In this document: in pieces, positions 2,980 to 19,693 of the stretch
Position numbering within the stretch: position 1 is the first letter of the stretch
Layout of the letters: each line of letters opens with the position of its first letter
Virus record (IMG/VR): IMGVR_UViG_3300044960_000804
Location: 1-25,851 of that record
Length of the DNA: 25,851 nucleotides
Direction: 5' to 3' (one strand)
From: a virus
Position numbers and translations under genes: made by a program
Notes under the pieces: generated by a model
What the model saw: only the letters and a program-made list of their open reading frames with translations
The model's database searches: none
Told to the model about the DNA's origin: nothing

Positions 2980-3041
2980 TGCGCCACCGCTTGGAAAAGA
3001 GCATCTTGCCTGCCGCGAAGGCTCAACGCTCAGTGACAGGC

Positions 3042-4277
3042 ATGAAGCAACATCTGACCGAGCGCGCCGTAAAGGCGATGGTGCCGGCAATCGACCGCGA
3101 CGTGCTCGTCTATGACGACGAGGTCACGGGTTTCGGCGTCTTCATCCTTCGCTCCGGGAAGCGCGGCTTCTTTCTCCGCTATCGCATCGCCGGCCGCGAG
3201 CGCCGCTTCACGATCGGCGCCTGGCCCACCTGGTCGGTCACCGCCGCGCGCGAAGAGGCGAAGCGGCTCAAGCGCGAAGTCGATGCCGGCAACGATCCGC
3301 TCGGCAAGCGCATCGAGCAACGCCATGCGCCGACCATGTCCGATCTGATCGATCGCTACCTCAAGGAGCACGCAGTCAATCTCGCGCCGCGGAGCTTCAG
3401 CGATCGGACTTCGCTTCTGCGCAAGCTAGTCGAGCCGGAATGGGGCGCCCGCAAGGTCGCGGAGATTACGCCGGAGGATGTCGATCGGCTGCTCGCCAAG
3501 ATCGCCAAGGGCCGACCCCGGCCGCGTAAGCATCCGCCGAAGGCTAATCCGCGGCGGCCGGCGATGAAGGGGCCGTTCAAGCCGACGCCGATCCGGGCGA
3601 ACCGCGTCGGCGAGATCCTGCGCAAGATGTTCAACCTCGCGATCCGCTGGCAGATGCGGCCGGACAATCCGGTCGTCGGCTTCTCGCGCTATCCCGAAAT
3701 CCCGCGCGATCGGTTTCTTTCCGCCAACGAAATTAAGCGCCTTGCCGACGTGCTCGCCGACCATCCGAACCGCCGCTGCGCGAATGTCATTCGCCTGATC
3801 CTCTTGACCGGCGCGCGGCGAGGCGAGGCGATGAACGCGCGCTGGGAGCAGTTCGATCTTGAGAACGGGATCTGGACCAAGCCCGCGGCCACCACAAAGC
3901 AACGCCGGCTCCATCGGGCGCCGCTTTCGCGGGCCGCGGTTGAACTCCTTCGCACGATCCGCCCAAGCGTGCCTGCAGATTGCCCGTGGGTCTTTCCCGG
4001 CGAGATCAAGGGGAACCCGTTGCGCGAAATGCAGACCTTCTGGGAAGGCGTGCGGGCGAAGGCGAAGCTCGGCGATGCCCGCATTCACGATCTGCGCCAT
4101 ACCTTCGCCTCGCTCCTCGTTTCGGGCGGCATGACGCTGCCGATGGTCGGCTGGCTGCTTGGCCACACACAAGCGCAAACCACGCTTCGCTACGCCCATC
4201 TTTATGACGATCCGCTGAGGGCCGGCCTTGATGAGGTGGGGGAAGCGCTGCGTCCCAAGCTGCGTCTTACCTCCTGA
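3042..4277 (+). CDS. int: Site-specific tyrosine recombinase (integrase), DUF4102 N-terminal type
   Basis: Phage/island integrase of about 411 residues from ATG 3042; an in-frame TTG at 2991 would add 17 residues, but MKQHLTERAVKAM is the usual start of the family. Domains in order: an N-terminal arm-binding DUF4102-like domain (about 1-90, with YDDEVTGFGVFILRSGKRGF and RRFTIGAWP), a SAM-like core-binding domain (about 95-205) and a C-terminal catalytic domain. Catalytic residues seen are Arg in TGARRGEAMNARW, His-Arg in IHDLRHTFAS, His in WLLGHTQ and the nucleophile Tyr in TTLRYAHL. It integrates and excises the element at the tRNA-fMet 3' end, whose remnant lies 325 bases upstream. A proline- and lysine-rich insert (about residues 153-180) lies in the core-binding domain. 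Expression may respond to the LexA box and 10-bp repeats upstream. Confidence 0.96.
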   Translation: MKQHLTERAVKAMVPAIDRDVLVYDDEVTGFGVFILRSGKRGFFLRYRIAGRERRFTIGAWPTWSVTAAREEAKRLKREVDAGNDPLGKRIEQRHAPTMSDLIDRYLKEHAVNLAPRSFSDRTSLLRKLVEPEWGARKVAEITPEDVDRLLAKIAKGRPRPRKHPPKANPRRPAMKGPFKPTPIRANRVGEILRKMFNLAIRWQMRPDNPVVGFSRYPEIPRDRFLSANEIKRLADVLADHPNRRCANVIRLILLTGARRGEAMNARWEQFDLENGIWTKPAATTKQRRLHRAPLSRAAVELLRTIRPSVPADCPWVFPGEIKGNPLREMQTFWEGVRAKAKLGDARIHDLRHTFASLLVSGGMTLPMVGWLLGHTQAQTTLRYAHLYDDPLRAGLDEVGEALRPKLRLTS

Positions 4278-4435: not shown

Positions 4436-5473
4436 ATGGCTAGAAGCGATCTCCTTGTTTCTCTTGTGCGCGCCGGTGCGACCGGAGACCGATCGATGCT
4501 TGCATCGACCGTCGAAGCCATTGTGGCCGAGGAGAAGTCACGAAGCCACCACATCTTGGCGAACCGTCTCCAGCAGGCGTTGCAAGCTGTACCGGTAACA
4601 ACCTCAAGCGAAGTCCGCCGACCGCACAGCGGGGGGCGAGACTTCGTGTTGGAAATTGAGCCACGGGTCAGACTTGAGGACTTGATTCTCACTCTTCCAG
4701 CGGAGCGCCTAAGCCAGCAGCTGATTGAAGAGCAGAACCGCGCAGACCTCCTTCGGGCCCAAGGGATGCAACCCCGTAACCGAGTCTTGCTCTCGGGCCC
4801 GCCTGGGAACGGGAAGACGTCGCTAGCCGAAGCCATCGCGGAGGCTGTGGCCCTACCGTTTTTGATTGTCCGATATGACGCTTTGGTTGGGGCCTATCTG
4901 GGCGAGACTAATGCTCGATTGGCGCGGCTGTTCGAGTACGCGCGTGCGACACCGTGCGTCCTCTTTTTCGATGAATTTGATGCGGTCGGCAAAGAGCGCG
5001 GTGATGTGCATGAGACCGGTGAGATAAAGCGCGTTGTATCATTTCTGCTGATGCAAATCGACCACTTGCCCAGCTACGTAATTGCCATCGCAGCCACGAA
5101 CCATGCCGAACTGTTGGACAGGGCCGTGTGGCGCCGGTTCCAGCTTCGAATTGAGATGCCAGCGCCCGATTCTGCCCGTCGAGCCGTTCTGGTCTCTCGC
5201 TTTTTCTCAGTCTGGCGCGAGGACGTTGGCCTCAGCCCGCAGGAGTTGGCCGACCGGCTGGGGATGGTGAGCTTTGCCGAAGTGTACGAGTTCTGCCAAA
5301 ACGTGCGCAGACGACATATTCTCGGGCAAGGCGGTGAGTCGCTGAAGCGAATCGTCGCTGAAGAACTCGAACTATGGGCGTCGCGAGTGACGCCATCGGC
5401 AAATGGCGACTCCTTCGGAATACGCTCTACTCCGGCTCGATCAGCCAAGAATCGGCGGCCGAAAGACTCGTAG
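4436..5473 (+). CDS. ietA: AAA+ ATPase of an IetAS-type system
   Basis: A 345-residue ATPase. Walker A is GPPGNGKTS at about 121-129, Walker B is CVLFFDE at about 174-180, sensor 1 is the Asn of AATNH near 222, and a likely arginine finger is WRR at about 232-234. The N-terminal 100 residues look helical and probably bind the partner; a small helical lid follows the core. It overlaps the subtilisin-like protease gene by 71 bases, and ATPase plus subtilase is the signature of IetAS. That pair was first described as a stability and incompatibility system of the Ti plasmid pTiC58, with the ATPase as antitoxin and the protease as toxin, and homologues are now counted among anti-phage systems. The basic C-terminal tail (after about 320) is encoded by the overlap. 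Lower GC than the flanks suggests separate acquisition. Confidence 0.88.
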   Translation: MARSDLLVSLVRAGATGDRSMLASTVEAIVAEEKSRSHHILANRLQQALQAVPVTTSSEVRRPHSGGRDFVLEIEPRVRLEDLILTLPAERLSQQLIEEQNRADLLRAQGMQPRNRVLLSGPPGNGKTSLAEAIAEAVALPFLIVRYDALVGAYLGETNARLARLFEYARATPCVLFFDEFDAVGKERGDVHETGEIKRVVSFLLMQIDHLPSYVIAIAATNHAELLDRAVWRRFQLRIEMPAPDSARRAVLVSRFFSVWREDVGLSPQELADRLGMVSFAEVYEFCQNVRRRHILGQGGESLKRIVAEELELWASRVTPSANGDSFGIRSTPARSAKNRRPKDS

Positions 5474-7925
5474 GCCTGCCTTCCCGACCCCGCGAAGATA
5501 CGGGGCTGCGGAGCAACTGAACCGACCACCTGGCTTGCGGTTGCAGCGGCTTGCTCAAGCATTTGCCGAAGGGCGGGACCCGCTAGAGCTCCGCGCTGAT
5601 CCAGCGGGGCTAGCGCCTGAACGCTTGCTCGTCTTTGAACTCACGACAGATGTCCAGAACTTTGCACGCGCTGCCGCCCAGATTCCTGGCTTGGAATTTA
5701 TCGGCGCTGAGGACCTGGAGCCGGACGAATTCGACAAAAACCCAGCGCTCTACCTCATGATCCCGGATGCAGCGGCCTTGCAGCAGATGGTAGGGCTTTG
5801 GAATCGTTTTCGCGAAGGCCAGACGTTTCCCGACGGATTTGCTCCCTGGCGCGATCTTTTTGCTCAGCTCCGCGATATCCGCCCATGGGGCCCAAGGGAT
5901 CGGGTCTCGGATAGCGACCTTAGCGTCCTGACTCAAGAACGAAGGGACGAAAGGGGGATGGTACGGATCGAGCTGGAGTTGGTCTATCGGCCGGAGACCG
6001 CTGCGGTTGAGCAGGATGCTCGCTCGGCGCTCCGATCCAGTGGGGGCGAGGTCATTTCCCATACGCGCATCGACGGCGCAAAATACCATGCGCTACTGGT
6101 TGACGTTCCACACGAAGAGCTCCAGCGCGTCTTGGCCAGAGGACATGAAGGCCTGGTCGCCGCCGAATCGGTGATGCATATTCGGCCTCAAAGCACAGCA
6201 CATTTGACGGTCTTTGAAGGTCAGGAACCTTCTCCGGCTCCAGCGGTGCCGCTGCCGACCGGCGATCCAATTGTAGCGATATTCGATGCCGTGCCGCTCT
6301 CCGGACACCCGTGTCTGTCCGGCCGCCTATCAGTTGACGATCCTTTTCATCTTGAGCCTCTAGCAGTGGGCGCGCGCCTGCACGGGACGGCAATGGCCTC
6401 AGCTGTCATTCACGGCGATCTCGCGGCACCTCCGCTCCCGCCGCTCGAACGACGAGTCTTCTTTGTCAATGTGATGTTTGCGCCTCAAGGACCGGATCAA
6501 GACGAGCGATTTCCCGATCGACTTCCCGCCGACCTATTTCACGAGGCGGTTCTTCGTCTCAAGGCCGGCGACGACCCACTTGCGCCCAGCGTTATCGTCA
6601 TTAACGCGTCGCTGGGGGACCGCAATAAGCCTTTCACGGGCAGAATGTCGGGCTGGGCTCGCGTTGTCGATTACCTCGCTCATACTTTCGGCCTTCTATT
6701 TATTATTAGCGCCGGAAACCATTTCGACGACCTCGTGACCGACGGCATGAATACGACGGACTTCGAAGCTTTGGACGCGGTCGAGAAGGCCAAGGTCGCG
6801 TTGCGCGCCAGCGGTGCAACGATCGGACAGCACCGCATATTGGCACCTGCTGAATCCATCAATGCGCTTACCGTCGGGGCCCTCCATAGCGACTCTGTTC
6901 CGGCTGGCGTGCTCCCGGCTTCGACATTCGACGTGTGGCAGAATACGGGGCTTTGCACCGTTTCCAGCGGATTAGGGCCAGGTCTAGGAAATGCTGTGAA
7001 GCCGGATGTCCTTGCCCCAGGTGGTCGCCATCATGTCCGGCTTCTGCCGACGACAACCGGACACGCTCTTCGACCGATTGGCAAGCAATCTACGCTGCTC
7101 GGCGGTATCGTGGTTGCGGCACCACCTGGGCCTACTGATATCAATCCAGACCGCACGAACAGAACCGTTGGGACGAGCGTTGCTGCTGCCTTGGTGACAG
7201 GTATCGCTGCTCGCGCGCATGAGGCCCTCGAAGCTGCCTATGATGATTTCAGTTCCATTGCGGGAGCTCAGCGAGCGGTACTCCTGAAGGCATTACTTGT
7301 GCACTGTGCTCGCTGGACATCGGCGCGTGACTTGATTGTTGAGATTCTTGGCCCTGCGGACGGCAAACAGCATGTTCGACAGAAGGACAACGTACGCCGA
7401 TATCTCGGCTATGGGGCGATCGACCCGAACATTGTGCTCGATTGTGCAAGCGACCGTGCCACATTGTGGGCAGTCGGAAGGCTTCAGAAGGAAGAGTCAC
7501 ATTCGTTCTCTGTTCCGTTGCCCACGGTTATGTCGGGAAAACCTCAACCGCATGAGTTTTCGGCGACCTTGGCTTGGCTTGCTCCGCCCCGAGTGGGCGC
7601 TGCAAACTATCGTGGTGTTCGTCTCAGACTGGTTGAACCCACGAATTCCGCGACGCTCTTCGCCGTCAAGGCTGCCGGCGAACAGCCCGACACGAATCAA
7701 GCTCATCGCGGAACTGTAATTCATCGCCGGTGGGCCGGGGAAAAGGCGGCAGTCCTGGCGACAGACTCGGCCTTTGAGGTGATGATTCAGCGCCAACCGG
7801 ATGAGATGGACGATCTAGCGCCCTATGCTCTCGTGGTCACGGTTGCTATGCCGGGAGTTGCTGGCGTTTACGCCGAGGTGCGAAACCGCATAGCCATCAA
7901 GCCTAAAGTGCCCGTCACCGCGTAA
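5403..7925 (+). CDS. ietS: Subtilisin-like (S8) serine protease of an IetAS-type system
   Basis: An 840-residue intracellular subtilase without a signal peptide. The catalytic set is intact: Asp295 in VAIFDAVPLSGHP, His327 in RLHGTAMAS, oxyanion Asn439 in IISAGNH and Ser592 in GTSVAAAL. Residues 1-285 form an N-terminal region (RPAFPTPRRY, LRLQRLAQAF) characteristic of the protease next to AAA ATPases, and about 650-840 form a beta-rich C-terminal domain. The ATG at 5403 lies inside ietA; the conserved region begins within 25 codons of it, so the long overlap appears real and implies coupled translation. In the pTiC58 system the protease is toxic and the ATPase neutralises it; an abortive response to infection is plausible here, by inference. 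The gene ends 30 bases before the end of the convergent gene at 7955. Confidence 0.9.
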   Translation: MATPSEYALLRLDQPRIGGRKTRRPAFPTPRRYGAAEQLNRPPGLRLQRLAQAFAEGRDPLELRADPAGLAPERLLVFELTTDVQNFARAAAQIPGLEFIGAEDLEPDEFDKNPALYLMIPDAAALQQMVGLWNRFREGQTFPDGFAPWRDLFAQLRDIRPWGPRDRVSDSDLSVLTQERRDERGMVRIELELVYRPETAAVEQDARSALRSSGGEVISHTRIDGAKYHALLVDVPHEELQRVLARGHEGLVAAESVMHIRPQSTAHLTVFEGQEPSPAPAVPLPTGDPIVAIFDAVPLSGHPCLSGRLSVDDPFHLEPLAVGARLHGTAMASAVIHGDLAAPPLPPLERRVFFVNVMFAPQGPDQDERFPDRLPADLFHEAVLRLKAGDDPLAPSVIVINASLGDRNKPFTGRMSGWARVVDYLAHTFGLLFIISAGNHFDDLVTDGMNTTDFEALDAVEKAKVALRASGATIGQHRILAPAESINALTVGALHSDSVPAGVLPASTFDVWQNTGLCTVSSGLGPGLGNAVKPDVLAPGGRHHVRLLPTTTGHALRPIGKQSTLLGGIVVAAPPGPTDINPDRTNRTVGTSVAAALVTGIAARAHEALEAAYDDFSSIAGAQRAVLLKALLVHCARWTSARDLIVEILGPADGKQHVRQKDNVRRYLGYGAIDPNIVLDCASDRATLWAVGRLQKEESHSFSVPLPTVMSGKPQPHEFSATLAWLAPPRVGAANYRGVRLRLVEPTNSATLFAVKAAGEQPDTNQAHRGTVIHRRWAGEKAAVLATDSAFEVMIQRQPDEMDDLAPYALVVTVAMPGVAGVYAEVRNRIAIKPKVPVTA

Positions 7926-16402: not shown

Positions 16403-16672
16403 ATGAAGACCGTCTCCATCCGCGAAGCCAAGAACCGGCTGACCGAACTCGCCCGCGAGGTTGAGGAGGGCGAGACGATCGTCGTCACCCGCAACGGACG
16501 CCCCGTTTTCGATCTTGTGCCGCATCAGCCTCGGAAGGGCCTCCGGCTCGAAGCGATCGACGAGTTCAAGCGGAAGCACGGCATCAAGACCGTCGTTCCC
16601 TACATTGCCGAGGACTTCGACGAGCCGCTTCCGGAGGACTTTCTGCTTCGACCGCTGCCGCCCGAAGCATGA
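16403..16672 (+). CDS. Phd/YefM-type antitoxin
   Basis: An 89-residue antitoxin. The N-terminal DNA-binding fold is clear: KTVSIREAKNRLTELAREVE, EGETIVVTRNGRPVFDLVPH is the Phd/YefM core that dimerises and binds the operator. The C-terminal third (KRKHGIKTVVPYIAEDFDEP, LPEDFLLRPLPP) is acidic and hydrophobic, as expected for the toxin-wrapping segment. It starts at ATG 16403, right behind the palindromic promoter, and its stop overlaps the toxin start (ATGA at 16669-16672). It neutralises the VapC-type RNase and should autorepress the pair. In an integrated element such a pair favours maintenance by killing cells that lose it. Confidence 0.93.
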   Translation: MKTVSIREAKNRLTELAREVEEGETIVVTRNGRPVFDLVPHQPRKGLRLEAIDEFKRKHGIKTVVPYIAEDFDEPLPEDFLLRPLPPEA

Positions 16673-17055
16673 GGTTGCTGCTCGATACCCACGTCCTGCT
16701 TGCCTTGATCGAGGATCGCCTCGTCGGCTTGCCGGCTGCGGTTGAGGGCCTGCTGAAGGACCCAGACAGCGAACATCATTTGAGCGCCGCGAGCTTGTGG
16801 GAGATTGCCATCAAATCGCGCTTGGGCAAGCTCAAGCTGACCCCCCGTTTGAGTTCGCTGCCCGAATTGCTTGACGGCTTGGGCATTCGGATCGTCGCAA
16901 TCAACGAGCACCACGCCCTCGCAAGCATTGAACCGGAGCCCGCGACTCGCGATCCGTTCGACAGGATGCTTTTGGCGCAGTGCCAAGTCGAAGGCCTTCG
17001 GCTGGTCACCGTGGACCGCGCGCTCGCCTCTCATCCGATGGCCGCCAAAGCTTAG
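16669..17055 (+). CDS. vapC: VapC-type PIN-domain toxin
   Basis: A 128-residue PIN RNase with all catalytic acids in place: Asp6 in RLLLDTHVLLAL, Glu45 in AASLWEIAIKSRLGK, Asp95 and Asp98 in ATRDPFDRMLLAQ and Asp116 in LVTVDRAL. The DTH and DPFDR forms are typical of VapC proteins that pair with Phd-type antitoxins; known VapCs cut tRNA or rRNA at single sites. It overlaps the antitoxin stop by 4 bases, so the two are co-translated. The gene ends 45 bases before the ParB-like gene with no terminator visible, so read-through into the modification genes is possible. In contrast with the PIN protein at 949, its active site looks intact. Confidence 0.94.
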   Translation: MRLLLDTHVLLALIEDRLVGLPAAVEGLLKDPDSEHHLSAASLWEIAIKSRLGKLKLTPRLSSLPELLDGLGIRIVAINEHHALASIEPEPATRDPFDRMLLAQCQVEGLRLVTVDRALASHPMAAKA

Positions 17056-17100: not shown

Positions 17101-17856
17101 ATGCTGATGATCGAGACTCGATCTCTCGACCGCCTAATCCCCTATGTCCGCAACGCGCGGACGCATTCGGAGGATCAGGTCGCGCAGATCGCCGCGTCGA
17201 TCGCCGAGTTCGGGTTCACGAATCCGATTCTGATCGGGGCCGATGACGTGGTCATTGCCGGGCACGGGCGGTTGCTCGCCGCGAAGCTCCTGGGGCTGAG
17301 CGAGGTTCCGGTCATCGTCCTCGATCATCTTTCGGATGCGCAGCGGCGTGCGTTGGTGATCGCCGACAACCGCATTGCCGAGAATGCGGGCTGGGACGAG
17401 GCGATGCTGCGCGCCGAGCTCGCGGCGCTGCGCGAGGACGCGTTCGATCTCGACGTGCTCGGCTTCGGCGACGCCGAGCTTCTCCGCATTCTCGATTCGA
17501 TCGACGGCTCCGCTTCGCTCGGGGGCGAGGACGCCGACGATTCCGGTCCTCCTCCCGCCGGATCGTCGGCGTCCGAGGCGTCCGCAACGCTGGCCGAACG
17601 CTTCGGCATTCCGCCGTTCACGGTTTTCGATGCGCGCAAGGGCTGGTGGCAGGAGCGCAAGCGGGCTTGGATCGATCTCGGCATTCGCTCGGAGCTCGGT
17701 CGCGGCGCCGCGCCTGGCGGAAGTCCGCGGCCGCTCGATCGGGCGCGGATGGCGAAGGCAAGCGCCGCGCCGGGCGGCTCGCCGTTGCCGGCCGCCGATT
17801 ATTCGAAATCGAAGGCACGGGGCGACGGGCGAGGCCGAGCAATCCCGAACAATTGA
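17101..17856 (+). CDS. ParB-like nuclease-domain protein, N-terminal half of a split ParB-methyltransferase
   Basis: A 251-residue protein (ATG 17101, or the ATG at 17107). Residues about 3-130 form a ParB/Srx-like domain: LIPYVRNARTHSEDQVAQIA, FGFTNPILIG, IAGHGRLLAAKLLG and RRALVIADNRIAE hold the CTP/nucleotide-binding motifs. After a Ser/Ala/Pro-rich linker come ERFGIPPFTVFDARKGWWQE and RKRAWIDLGIRSELGRG, a segment that in related phage proteins joins the ParB domain to a DNA methyltransferase in one chain. Here the frame stops at 17854-17856 after a low-complexity tail, and the methyltransferase starts as a separate gene at 18123. Function is probably DNA recognition for modification rather than plasmid partition. 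The split is seen directly; the comparison with fused relatives is from memory. Confidence 0.86.
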   Translation: MLMIETRSLDRLIPYVRNARTHSEDQVAQIAASIAEFGFTNPILIGADDVVIAGHGRLLAAKLLGLSEVPVIVLDHLSDAQRRALVIADNRIAENAGWDEAMLRAELAALREDAFDLDVLGFGDAELLRILDSIDGSASLGGEDADDSGPPPAGSSASEASATLAERFGIPPFTVFDARKGWWQERKRAWIDLGIRSELGRGAAPGGSPRPLDRARMAKASAAPGGSPLPAADYSKSKARGDGRGRAIPNN

Positions 17857-18110: not shown

Positions 18111-18122
18111 CTGAGCCAGCGA

Positions 18123-18920
18123 ATGACGAACCTCACCTTCGTGAAGGGCGATCGCGAATCCGAAGAACTCGATCCGGTCAGCCAGGCGATCCTCGAAGTG
18201 GGATCGGGCACTTCGATCTTCGATCCCGTGCTCTGCGAAATCGCCTATCGCTGGTTCTGCCCGCCGGGCGGCACCGTTCTCGATCCCTTCGCCGGCGGAT
18301 CGGTCCGCGGCATCGTCGCCTCGCGGCTCGGGCTGCGCTACGTGGGCATCGAGCTTCGCCCCGAACAGGTGGCGGCGAATGTCGCCCAGTTGCATCTCGC
18401 CGACGGCCTCAAGCCCGAATGGCGGCAGGGCGATGCGCGCGAGATTGCGCGGCTTGCCGGCGACATTGAGGCCGACCTGATCTTCTCGTGCCCGCCCTAT
18501 TGGAATCTCGAACGCTATTCGGACGATCCTGCCGACCTGTCGAACATGGATCGCGATGATTTCTTCTCGGCCTATGTCGAGGTCATTCGAGGAGCGGTCG
18601 AACGCCTCCGGCCGGATCGCTTCGCGGTGTGGGTCGTCGGCGATGTCCGCGACGACGACGGCGGTTATGTGAACCTTCCCGGTCGGACGGTCGAGGACTT
18701 CGAGGCCGCCGGCGCGCGGTTCTACAACGACGCCATCCTCGTCACCGCGGTCGGCTCGTTGCCGGTGCGGGTCGGACGGCAGTTCGAGGCGTCGCGCAAG
18801 CTCGGGCGCACCCATCAGAACGTGATGGTCTTCGTCAAGGGCGATCCGCGCAGGGCGACGAAAGTGTGCGGCCAGGTGGAATTCGGCGACATCGAGCCGG
18901 CCGCGGAAGGCGAATTTTGA
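18123..18920 (+). CDS. DNA methyltransferase (phage type, motif order I-IV)
   Basis: A 265-residue SAM-dependent DNA methyltransferase. The SAM-binding motif I region is VLDPFAGGSVRGIVASRLG (Asp54 to Gly59), followed by YVGIELRPEQVAAN, and the catalytic motif IV is FSCPPYW (122-127), the S/N-PP-Y form of amino-methyltransferases. The N-terminal LDPVSQAILEVGSGTSIFDP is the characteristic run-in found in phage ParB-methyltransferase fusions. Methylation of N6-adenine or N4-cytosine is predicted; the target is unknown. It may protect element DNA from host restriction. The stop (18918-18920) directly abuts a tRNA gene that starts at 18921, and its TGA shares the A with an ATG that reads through the tRNA. 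The gene starts 12 bases after the small ORF upstream. Confidence 0.92.
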   Translation: MTNLTFVKGDRESEELDPVSQAILEVGSGTSIFDPVLCEIAYRWFCPPGGTVLDPFAGGSVRGIVASRLGLRYVGIELRPEQVAANVAQLHLADGLKPEWRQGDAREIARLAGDIEADLIFSCPPYWNLERYSDDPADLSNMDRDDFFSAYVEVIRGAVERLRPDRFAVWVVGDVRDDDGGYVNLPGRTVEDFEAAGARFYNDAILVTAVGSLPVRVGRQFEASRKLGRTHQNVMVFVKGDPRRATKVCGQVEFGDIEPAAEGEF

Positions 18921-18992
18921 TGCAGGGTGGCGCAGCGGCAGCGCGCGCGGCTCATGCCCGCGAGGTCGCCGGTTCGATTCCGGCCCCTGCAA
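18921..18992 (+). tRNA. tRNA with CAT anticodon (tRNA-Met or tRNA-Ile2), phage-encoded
   Basis: A 72-nt cloverleaf: 7-bp acceptor (TGCAGGG with CCCTGCA), 4-bp D stem (GCGC/GCGC) with loop AGCGGCA, 5-bp anticodon stem (CGCGG/CCGCG) with loop CTCATGC, and a 5-bp T stem (GCCGG/CCGGC) with loop TTCGATT. Discriminator base is A; the next bases are CCG, so CCA must be added. All stems are perfect. The anticodon CAT would read AUG, or AUA if lysidine-modified. Position 37 is G, not the usual A of AUN-reading tRNAs, and T1:A72 differs from the initiator pattern. It starts at the base after the methyltransferase stop codon. Confidence 0.88.
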
Positions 18993-19003
18993 CCGCACCA
19001 ATT

Positions 19004-19693
19004 GTGATCGAGCACGACGGCGTGCTGGTCGTTCGCGACGATCTTTTCCCTGGCGGGACGAAGGCCCGCTTCATTGGCGCATTCTTCACCGGTGCCGACG
19101 AAGCCGTCTATGCGAGCCCGGCGGAGGGCGGCGCGCAGACGGCGCTGGCCACGGTCGCGCGTCAGCTCGGCAAGCGGGCGACGATCTTCGTCGCGCAGCG
19201 CGCATCGCCGCACCCGCGAACGCTCGAAGCGGCGCGCCTCGGCGCGAAGATCATCACCGTTCAGCCGGGCTACCTGTCGGTCGTTCAGGCCCGCGCCCGC
19301 GAGTATTGCCAGCGAACCGAAGCCGCTCTCGTGCCGTTCGGCGTCGATGCCGAGTTTGCGATCGCCGCAATCGCGCAAACCGCCGCCTCGCTCGCCATCG
19401 ATCCGGACGAGGTCTGGTGCGCCGCGGGTTCCGGAGTTCTCGTGCGCGGCCTTGCCCGCGCCTGGCCCAAGGCGCGGCACCATGCCGTTCAGATCGGACG
19501 CGCGCTCGCGCCGGCCGAGGTCGGGGGCGCGACGATCCACGTCTACTCGGCGCCGTTCGGCCGCAAGGCGAGGATCAAGCCGCCGTTTCCATCCGATCCG
19601 CACTACGACGCCAAAGCCTGGGAGCTATGCGCGGCCCGGAAGGGTCCGGGCCGCGTGCTGTTCTGGAATGTCGCCGGGTCGGCGCAACCGTGA
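19004..19693 (+). CDS. PLP-dependent enzyme-like phage protein (fold type II)
   Basis: About 229 residues from GTG 19004; an open frame from ATG 18920 reads through the tRNA and is unlikely to be the start. Sequence features recall ACC deaminase/D-cysteine desulfhydrase proteins: LFPGGTKARFIGAF holds the candidate PLP lysine, SPAEGGAQTALATVARQLGK matches the phosphate-side helix, GAKIITVQPGYLSVVQARAR the next helix, CAAGSGVLVRGLARAWP the Gly-rich loop, and HYDAKAWELC with VLFWNVAG the C-terminal part. Length is well below the usual 330 residues, so it is a compact or trimmed version. Downstream of ParB-like and methyltransferase genes it may take part in DNA base modification, as PLP enzymes do in some phages, which is inference. 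A strong hairpin occurs near its end. Confidence 0.75.
   Translation: MIEHDGVLVVRDDLFPGGTKARFIGAFFTGADEAVYASPAEGGAQTALATVARQLGKRATIFVAQRASPHPRTLEAARLGAKIITVQPGYLSVVQARAREYCQRTEAALVPFGVDAEFAIAAIAQTAASLAIDPDEVWCAAGSGVLVRGLARAWPKARHHAVQIGRALAPAEVGGATIHVYSAPFGRKARIKPPFPSDPHYDAKAWELCAARKGPGRVLFWNVAGSAQP
19630..19655. repeat. Perfect 11-bp hairpin in the end of the PLP-like gene
   Basis: CGCGGCCCGGA (19630-19640) and TCCGGGCCGCG (19645-19655) form a GC-rich stem around AGGG. It lies 38 bases before two convergent stop codons. No T-run follows, so classical Rho-independent termination is not supported, but it may still slow transcription from either side. Confidence 0.5.

Follow-up and report, generated by a model that had tools for sequence, protein, structure and literature searches.

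A CAU tRNA gene nested in the first codons of a PALP-family enzyme gene of temperate phages

The closest described counterpart of the locus reported here is the tRNASec gene found inside the selB open reading frame (ORF) of Alphaproteobacteria (Mukai 2021, PMC8124441). In that system an entire tRNA is contained in a protein ORF, its length is a multiple of three, an overlapping stop/start lies beside it, alternative tRNA and protein products are proposed, and remnants occur in relatives, all of which have parallels here. The two differ in that tRNASec makes up the C-terminal end of its ORF and serves a function bound to SelB, whereas the tRNA here is of Met type, opens a PLP-enzyme ORF at its 5′ end and belongs to temperate phages; its processing would cost the message its start codon rather than its stop codon. 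Among the papers listed in a search of the open-licence literature, only this one describes a tRNA nested in a bacterial ORF. Two phage systems share other parts of the arrangement. Like the locus studied here, tRNA-dependent lysogeny (Guerrero-Bustamante and Hatfull 2024, PMC10865867) combines a tyrosine integrase, attachment in a tRNA gene and a phage tRNA of the same amino-acid type, but here integration rebuilds the host tRNA. Changes in the loop 3′ of the anticodon, as seen here, also mark phage tRNAs that escape cleavage by anticodon nucleases (van den Berg 2023, PMC10264068), but the tRNA described below is nested in an ORF and no nuclease matching it is known. A phage Met-type tRNA and integration in a tRNA gene are the ordinary parts of the locus; the nesting is the unusual part.

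The window, that is, the whole stretch of DNA analysed, is a 25,851-base virus record (IMG/VR) encoding a terminase, a portal protein and an integrase, which bears out the phage origin assumed in a preliminary description of this DNA. A tRNA-CAT is called at 18921-18992 (+) by both ARAGORN and Rfam RF00005 (63.3 bits, E 8.7e-12), and this is the only match above the gathering score in the window; tRNA classification and a covariance score, which the preliminary description had proposed as a check, both return a tRNA-CAU. The gene comprises bases 1-73 in the standard numbering, with the anticodon CAT at 18953-18955 (+), G37 at 18956 and C38 at 18957. CCA is not encoded, A73 being followed by CCG, and base 1 lies directly 3′ of the stop codon (TGA, 18918-18920) of a DNA methyltransferase ORF (N6_N4_Mtase; 18123-18920, +); on these points, as on the CAT anticodon and G37, the preliminary description was accurate. 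What it missed is that the tRNA is not intergenic but lies wholly inside the next ORF (18920-19693, +), where it is read in frame as the first ~25 residues (residues 1-25) of a PALP-family protein, assigned to the fold-type II PLP enzymes by PF00291, phrog_7093 and its predicted fold. The ATG of this ORF (18920-18922) overlaps the methyltransferase stop (TGATG), as does a TTG in the same frame (18917-18919), so that the overlapping stop/start occupies 18917-18922 (+). Upstream of it is a Shine-Dalgarno-like GGAAGG (18905-18910, +), with a pairing energy of -5.7 kcal/mol with the anti-Shine-Dalgarno sequence.

This layout is shared by related viruses. Among the best 80 of 131 viral PALP homologues, ARAGORN called a tRNA-CAT at the same spot in 16, giving 17 loci with the window, and a second scan based on alignment and profiles recovered the same 16 and no more among the best 80 of 112. 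The whole tRNA lies inside one ORF at all 17 loci, and every one of them has a TGA directly before base 1 and a TTG/ATG at -4 that overlaps it. The length of the tRNA is divisible by three (72 bases to position 73, 75 with CCA), and changes in length are in frame (one codon shorter in L011 and L016, two codons in L014, L015 and L018). At the 13 loci for which it was computed, the anti-Shine-Dalgarno energy at the -4 start was always between -4.7 and -8.1 kcal/mol.

Conservation of the tRNA was assessed on 11 of the 17 loci, aligned gap-free after leaving out four near-copies and L011/L016, which have a shorter tRNA. The mean pairwise difference was 0.005 over the 40 stem positions and 0.148 over the 32 other positions. 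At third codon positions it was 0.041 in the tRNA versus 0.424 in the PALP core, where none of 176 equally sized segments fell below 0.336. All 12 third codon positions that fall in stems are invariant, compared with 25/200 in the PALP core (175/200 vary), and this points to selection on the RNA structure. Variation within the tRNA is concentrated at codon positions 1 or 2 (11 of the 14 variable columns), the reverse of what protein constraint produces, so the peptide is not what is conserved. The cloverleaf, and not the leader peptide, is conserved, and the RNA structure is under selection.

In 61 of the 64 relatives without a tRNA, a 4-base stop/start overlap lies ahead of PALP. The tRNA-less proteins typically begin M-T-A-P-I-V, and the window reads ...A-T-A-P-I-V after the tRNA; the tRNA-bearing loci in general read A-T-x-P at this point. 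These sequences would be most simply explained if 24 codons had been inserted immediately after the start codon, in which case the second codon of PALP (ACC) is inferred to supply tRNA bases 73-75. On a tree of 29 chosen PALP sequences, tRNA presence is patchy, with four changes, and a single clade is rejected (p-AU 0.0039). Because the spot is identical in all tRNA-bearing loci, the likely history is a single insertion with later losses or recombination at the conserved flanks; separate insertions are a possible alternative. L076 has a remnant-like sequence, as if the tRNA had been deleted internally and in frame; the enzyme frame breaks further on, and we therefore give it little weight as a deletion case. 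None of 29 genome loci with the PALP enzyme carries the tRNA, and strong matches in a 385-genome sample of the class were confined to the centre genome. In another phage region, a very similar CAT tRNA (L254 3232-3309, +) sits directly 3′ of a TGA and inside an open 251-aa ORF (3033-3788) of a different gene; this could be another case of nesting or a frame that is open by chance. A relative of the locus in the record of L213 (G425, 18120-18834) is without the nested tRNA; other tRNA-like matches lie in the middle of its genome, and the left end has a strong tRNA.

The protein specified by the nested ORF is a member of the PALP family by both Pfam (PF00291) and PHROG (phrog_7093) assignment. 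Its predicted model is folded from about residue 27 onwards and is similar to fold-type II PLP enzymes, D-cysteine desulfhydrase among them; a search of solved structures by sequence yielded nothing meaningful. Residues 1-18, which are encoded by the tRNA, have a pLDDT below 50, and the tRNA-encoded leader is probably disordered in this model. In Erythrobacter phage ZS04 (L400 1831-4269), a single CDS of 2,439 bases, annotated as a DNA methyltransferase, includes the PALP stretch, and this suggests that methyltransferase and PALP probably work together, perhaps in DNA modification. The two are separate CDSs with a 4-base overlap in Microcystis phage Mae-JY30. A ParB-like nuclease/partition protein (17101-17856, +) is encoded upstream in the same gene cluster of the window. 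Still further upstream lies a PIN-domain (VapC-like) gene (16669-17055, +), which shares 98% identity with its counterpart in L011; the remaining 15 tRNA-bearing relatives, several short ones included, yielded no copy of it.

We propose, with a probability of roughly 0.6, that this is a nested tRNA gene at the methyltransferase-PALP stop/start overlap, and that a single transcript can end as a processed tRNA or serve to make the enzyme, but not both. The observed basis for the proposal is the position and frame of the tRNA, the conservation of the layout, the selection on the stems and the Shine-Dalgarno sequence at the overlapping start. A CAU tRNA of initiator-like descent would occupy the first 25 PALP codons, and the fates of the transcript would be exclusive. 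Where the cloverleaf folds, RNase P would cut directly behind the UGA, and 3′ processing would release a free Met-type tRNA; the PALP message would then have lost its start codon. Where a ribosome starts at the UUG/AUG over the UGA, it would unfold the tRNA and make PALP with a tRNA-encoded leader. The two products would exclude each other on any given transcript, in line with Mukai's proposal for selB and its tRNASec (PMC8124441). RNase P processing, Met charging, mutual exclusion and any regulatory use are the steps that we infer.

The nesting itself could be read differently. Taken alone, an open frame through the tRNA is weak evidence that the frame is used, because the same frame is also open, in combination with a length that is a multiple of three, in 27 of 130 unrelated CAT tRNAs. 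That baseline, together with GTG codons at +83 and +101 in the window, would suit an ordinary phage tRNA lying between two genes, with PALP starting at a later GTG or TTG and the frame open by chance. We judge this unlikely, since there is no ATG, GTG or TTG from the tRNA to the conserved RDD motif in two of the 13 loci tested (L006 and L012), internal start candidates in the other 11 have poor Shine-Dalgarno energies apart from two GTG codons at the core edge (-6.1 in L008 and -6.9 in L016), and the TTG/ATG over the stop is kept in 17/17 loci. It is also possible, if doubtful, that the cloverleaf is a tRNA-shaped processing signal or a decaying relic through which RNase P punctuates the operon, with no charged tRNA being used. 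The putative cut site lies directly behind the stop codon at all 17 loci, as such a signal would have it, and some copies look degraded: C73, which would hinder Met charging, is present in L014, L015 and L018, L011/L016 have C33 and a shortened mini D-arm (with a different anticodon stem that is still paired) and were not detected by the Rfam searches of their records, and the remnant-like L076 fits the same picture. Judged by these sequences, not every locus copy need be a working tRNA. Against a mere signal or relic stand the conserved stems, A73 in 14/17 loci and an encoded CCA in 15/17. Further points weigh against our own reading: the leader peptide is not conserved, the window copy has G37, a competing fold and no encoded CCA, and tRNA presence on the PALP tree is patchy. 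A tRNA gene whose RNA and reading frame would both be used is the reading we prefer.

By its sequence features, the tRNA is an initiator-like hybrid and not an initiator. It resembles bacterial tRNA-fMet in its CAU anticodon, in A73, G2:C71, C3:G70, G30:C40 and G31:C39, and in having no Watson-Crick 1-72 pair at 16 of the 17 loci (C-A in nine, A-A in four, C-U in two and U-U in one); the window has U1-A72. In one survey, 98.6% of bacterial initiators are mismatched at 1-72, and U1-A72 is the only matched pair in predicted initiators, occurring in 66/4438 of them and in 3/5179 elongators (PMC5143459). The tRNA departs from tRNA-fMet in its short D-loop, in C or U at position 38 for A38, in G37 at five loci and in two stem pairs: C11:G24 replaces the initiator feature R11:Y24 in 11/11 aligned loci, and C29:G41 accompanies G30:C40 and G31:C39, again in 11/11, in place of the G29:C41 of the three-G:C initiator feature (G29:C41, G30:C40, G31:C39; PMC7949028). 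Raw similarity with the D-loop left out is 47/65 to host fMet and 45/65 to host Met for the window tRNA, and overall similarity to the fMet and Met genes of six Alphaproteobacteria is about equal and does not divide initiator from elongator. With CAU and A73, the window tRNA has the Met charging identity (identity set from PMC9976931), and decoding of AUG with Met is most likely its function on this evidence. The suggestion that it could replace or compete with the host initiator is possible: the initiator-like 1-72 position favours it, and the absence of R11:Y24 and G29:C41 tells against it.

G37 is present at five of the 17 loci (the window and L012-L015) and A37 at the other 12, so G37, which the preliminary description had remarked on, is not the defining feature of the locus. 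That it is unusual holds true: it is absent from all 12 distinct host CAT tRNAs compared, which come from six Alphaproteobacteria. On the PALP tree G37 requires three changes, and it is, as far as the sequences indicate, a local anticodon-loop variant with about three origins. All 17 loci have C or U at position 38, never A, and host CAT tRNAs have A38. Among the matches listed for at least 120 initiator-type tRNAs in viral contigs, A37A38 was found in 104/120 and G37, which this search pattern did not require, in 3/120. These figures do not give a phage frequency, as host attachment sites could account for many of these tRNAs. Initiator-like viral tRNAs with G37/C38 occur in 22 contigs (L082-L103), some of them in large tRNA clusters; the search pattern demanded G37/C38, and the count indicates recurrence only. 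The "perfect cloverleaf" of the preliminary description is upheld by the covariance model but not by the minimum-energy fold of the bare RNA, which is not a cloverleaf (-37.8 vs -34.8 kcal/mol), since G37 is able to pair with C32. This competing fold could give way to the cloverleaf under the influence of modifications and proteins, and the relatives with A37 that were tested fold as cloverleaves, except L018.

The element is itself inserted in a tRNA-CAT gene, as had been stated, and the site can now be specified as a host tRNA-fMet gene, whose 3′ half (2672-2717, -) is the attachment site and is adjoined by a tyrosine integrase gene (2991-4277, +; PF00589). The window record ends before its own right attachment end, and the rebuilt tRNA-fMet was read from records G010, G012 and G017, where it is complete at the right end in 3/3 records that hold this end; from this it follows that the host tRNA is rebuilt on integration. 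In two of these records, G010 and G012, halves of the tRNA are present as well, either on the left or in between two prophages arranged in tandem. The fMet sequence is carried by 9/20 relatives without the nested tRNA as well, and the attachment site and the nested tRNA are probably independent facts. The 92,497-base record of L007 and L018 (G012) apparently holds two tandem prophages of the group in one tRNA-fMet gene, each with one nested tRNA, the sequences of which differ. Beside the integrase, the prophage encodes an anti-phage defence system, IetA (AAA ATPase) and IetS (S8 peptidase), at 4436-7925 (+) (PADLOC, E 1e-143 and 2e-258), and an Mrr-type IV restriction endonuclease (1565-2485, -) lies on the host side of the attachment site.

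These features bear on what the tRNA might be for. A lysidine-modified tRNA-Ile2 reading AUA, which the preliminary description had raised, would agree with the CAU anticodon, A73 and C29-G41, but the window tRNA has A4-U69, G12-C23, G37 and C38 in place of the C4-G69, U12-A23, A37 and A38 of bacterial Ile identity (PMC9976931), and AUA makes up only 6/5747 codons in 16 window genes; we rejected this candidate as scarcely credible. Nor do we believe, except at very long odds, that the tRNA stands in for a host tRNA destroyed by integration. Integration in tRNA-fMet by a phage with a CAU tRNA of the same amino-acid type would invite that explanation; the complete tRNA-fMet at the right end of 3/3 records and the fMet site in 9/20 tRNA-less relatives lead us to reject it. 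A further proposal is that the tRNA is a nuclease-resistant spare initiator that sustains translation when the anticodon loop of host tRNA-fMet is cut, for example by a VapC that cuts between A38 and C39. Enteric VapC is described as cutting fMet at this bond (PMC4105405), position 38 is its 5′ side, and a role in nuclease evasion is for this reason possible; the C or U found there in 17/17 loci, against A38 in the host, would agree, as would the anticodon-loop changes of phage tRNAs proposed as evasion in PMC10264068. On the other side, C11:G24 and C29:G41 do not belong to the initiator features, no nuclease is known in the hosts or linked with the locus, and the PIN-domain gene of the window is common to only one of the 16 tRNA-bearing relatives, so that we consider a spare initiator rather improbable. 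A link to the phage VapC was considered separately and dropped, the PIN gene being present in 1/16 tRNA-bearing and 1/64 tRNA-less relatives.

Within the nested-gene reading, a more speculative extension, to which we attach little probability, is a self-adjusting initiator-tRNA switch, in which the operon junction would sense and restore initiator tRNA. The idea comes from E. coli, where the properties of initiator tRNA matter for re-initiation at coupled genes (PMC2268962). Ribosomes ending the methyltransferase would need initiator tRNA to restart at the overlapping UUG/AUG. With plentiful initiator tRNA, re-initiation would run through the nested tRNA and give the enzyme; with scarce initiator tRNA, for instance under attack by an anticodon nuclease, re-initiation would fail, the cloverleaf would fold and RNase P would free the tRNA. 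The phage would then replenish initiation with a tRNA copy altered at positions 37/38.

Seventy-two bases that serve a tRNA fold and an open frame at once would be a rare natural case of dual coding outside organelles. At a translational-coupling junction, maturing the tRNA and translating the gene that follows would be in physical competition, and the locus would offer a compact, testable setting in which to study how a single RNA is shared between ribosomes and RNase P. The case also suggests that protein N-termini derived from a tRNA need not always be mistakes of annotation, and gene finders that forbid overlap between a CDS and a tRNA would mis-start the members of the PALP family that have a nested tRNA.
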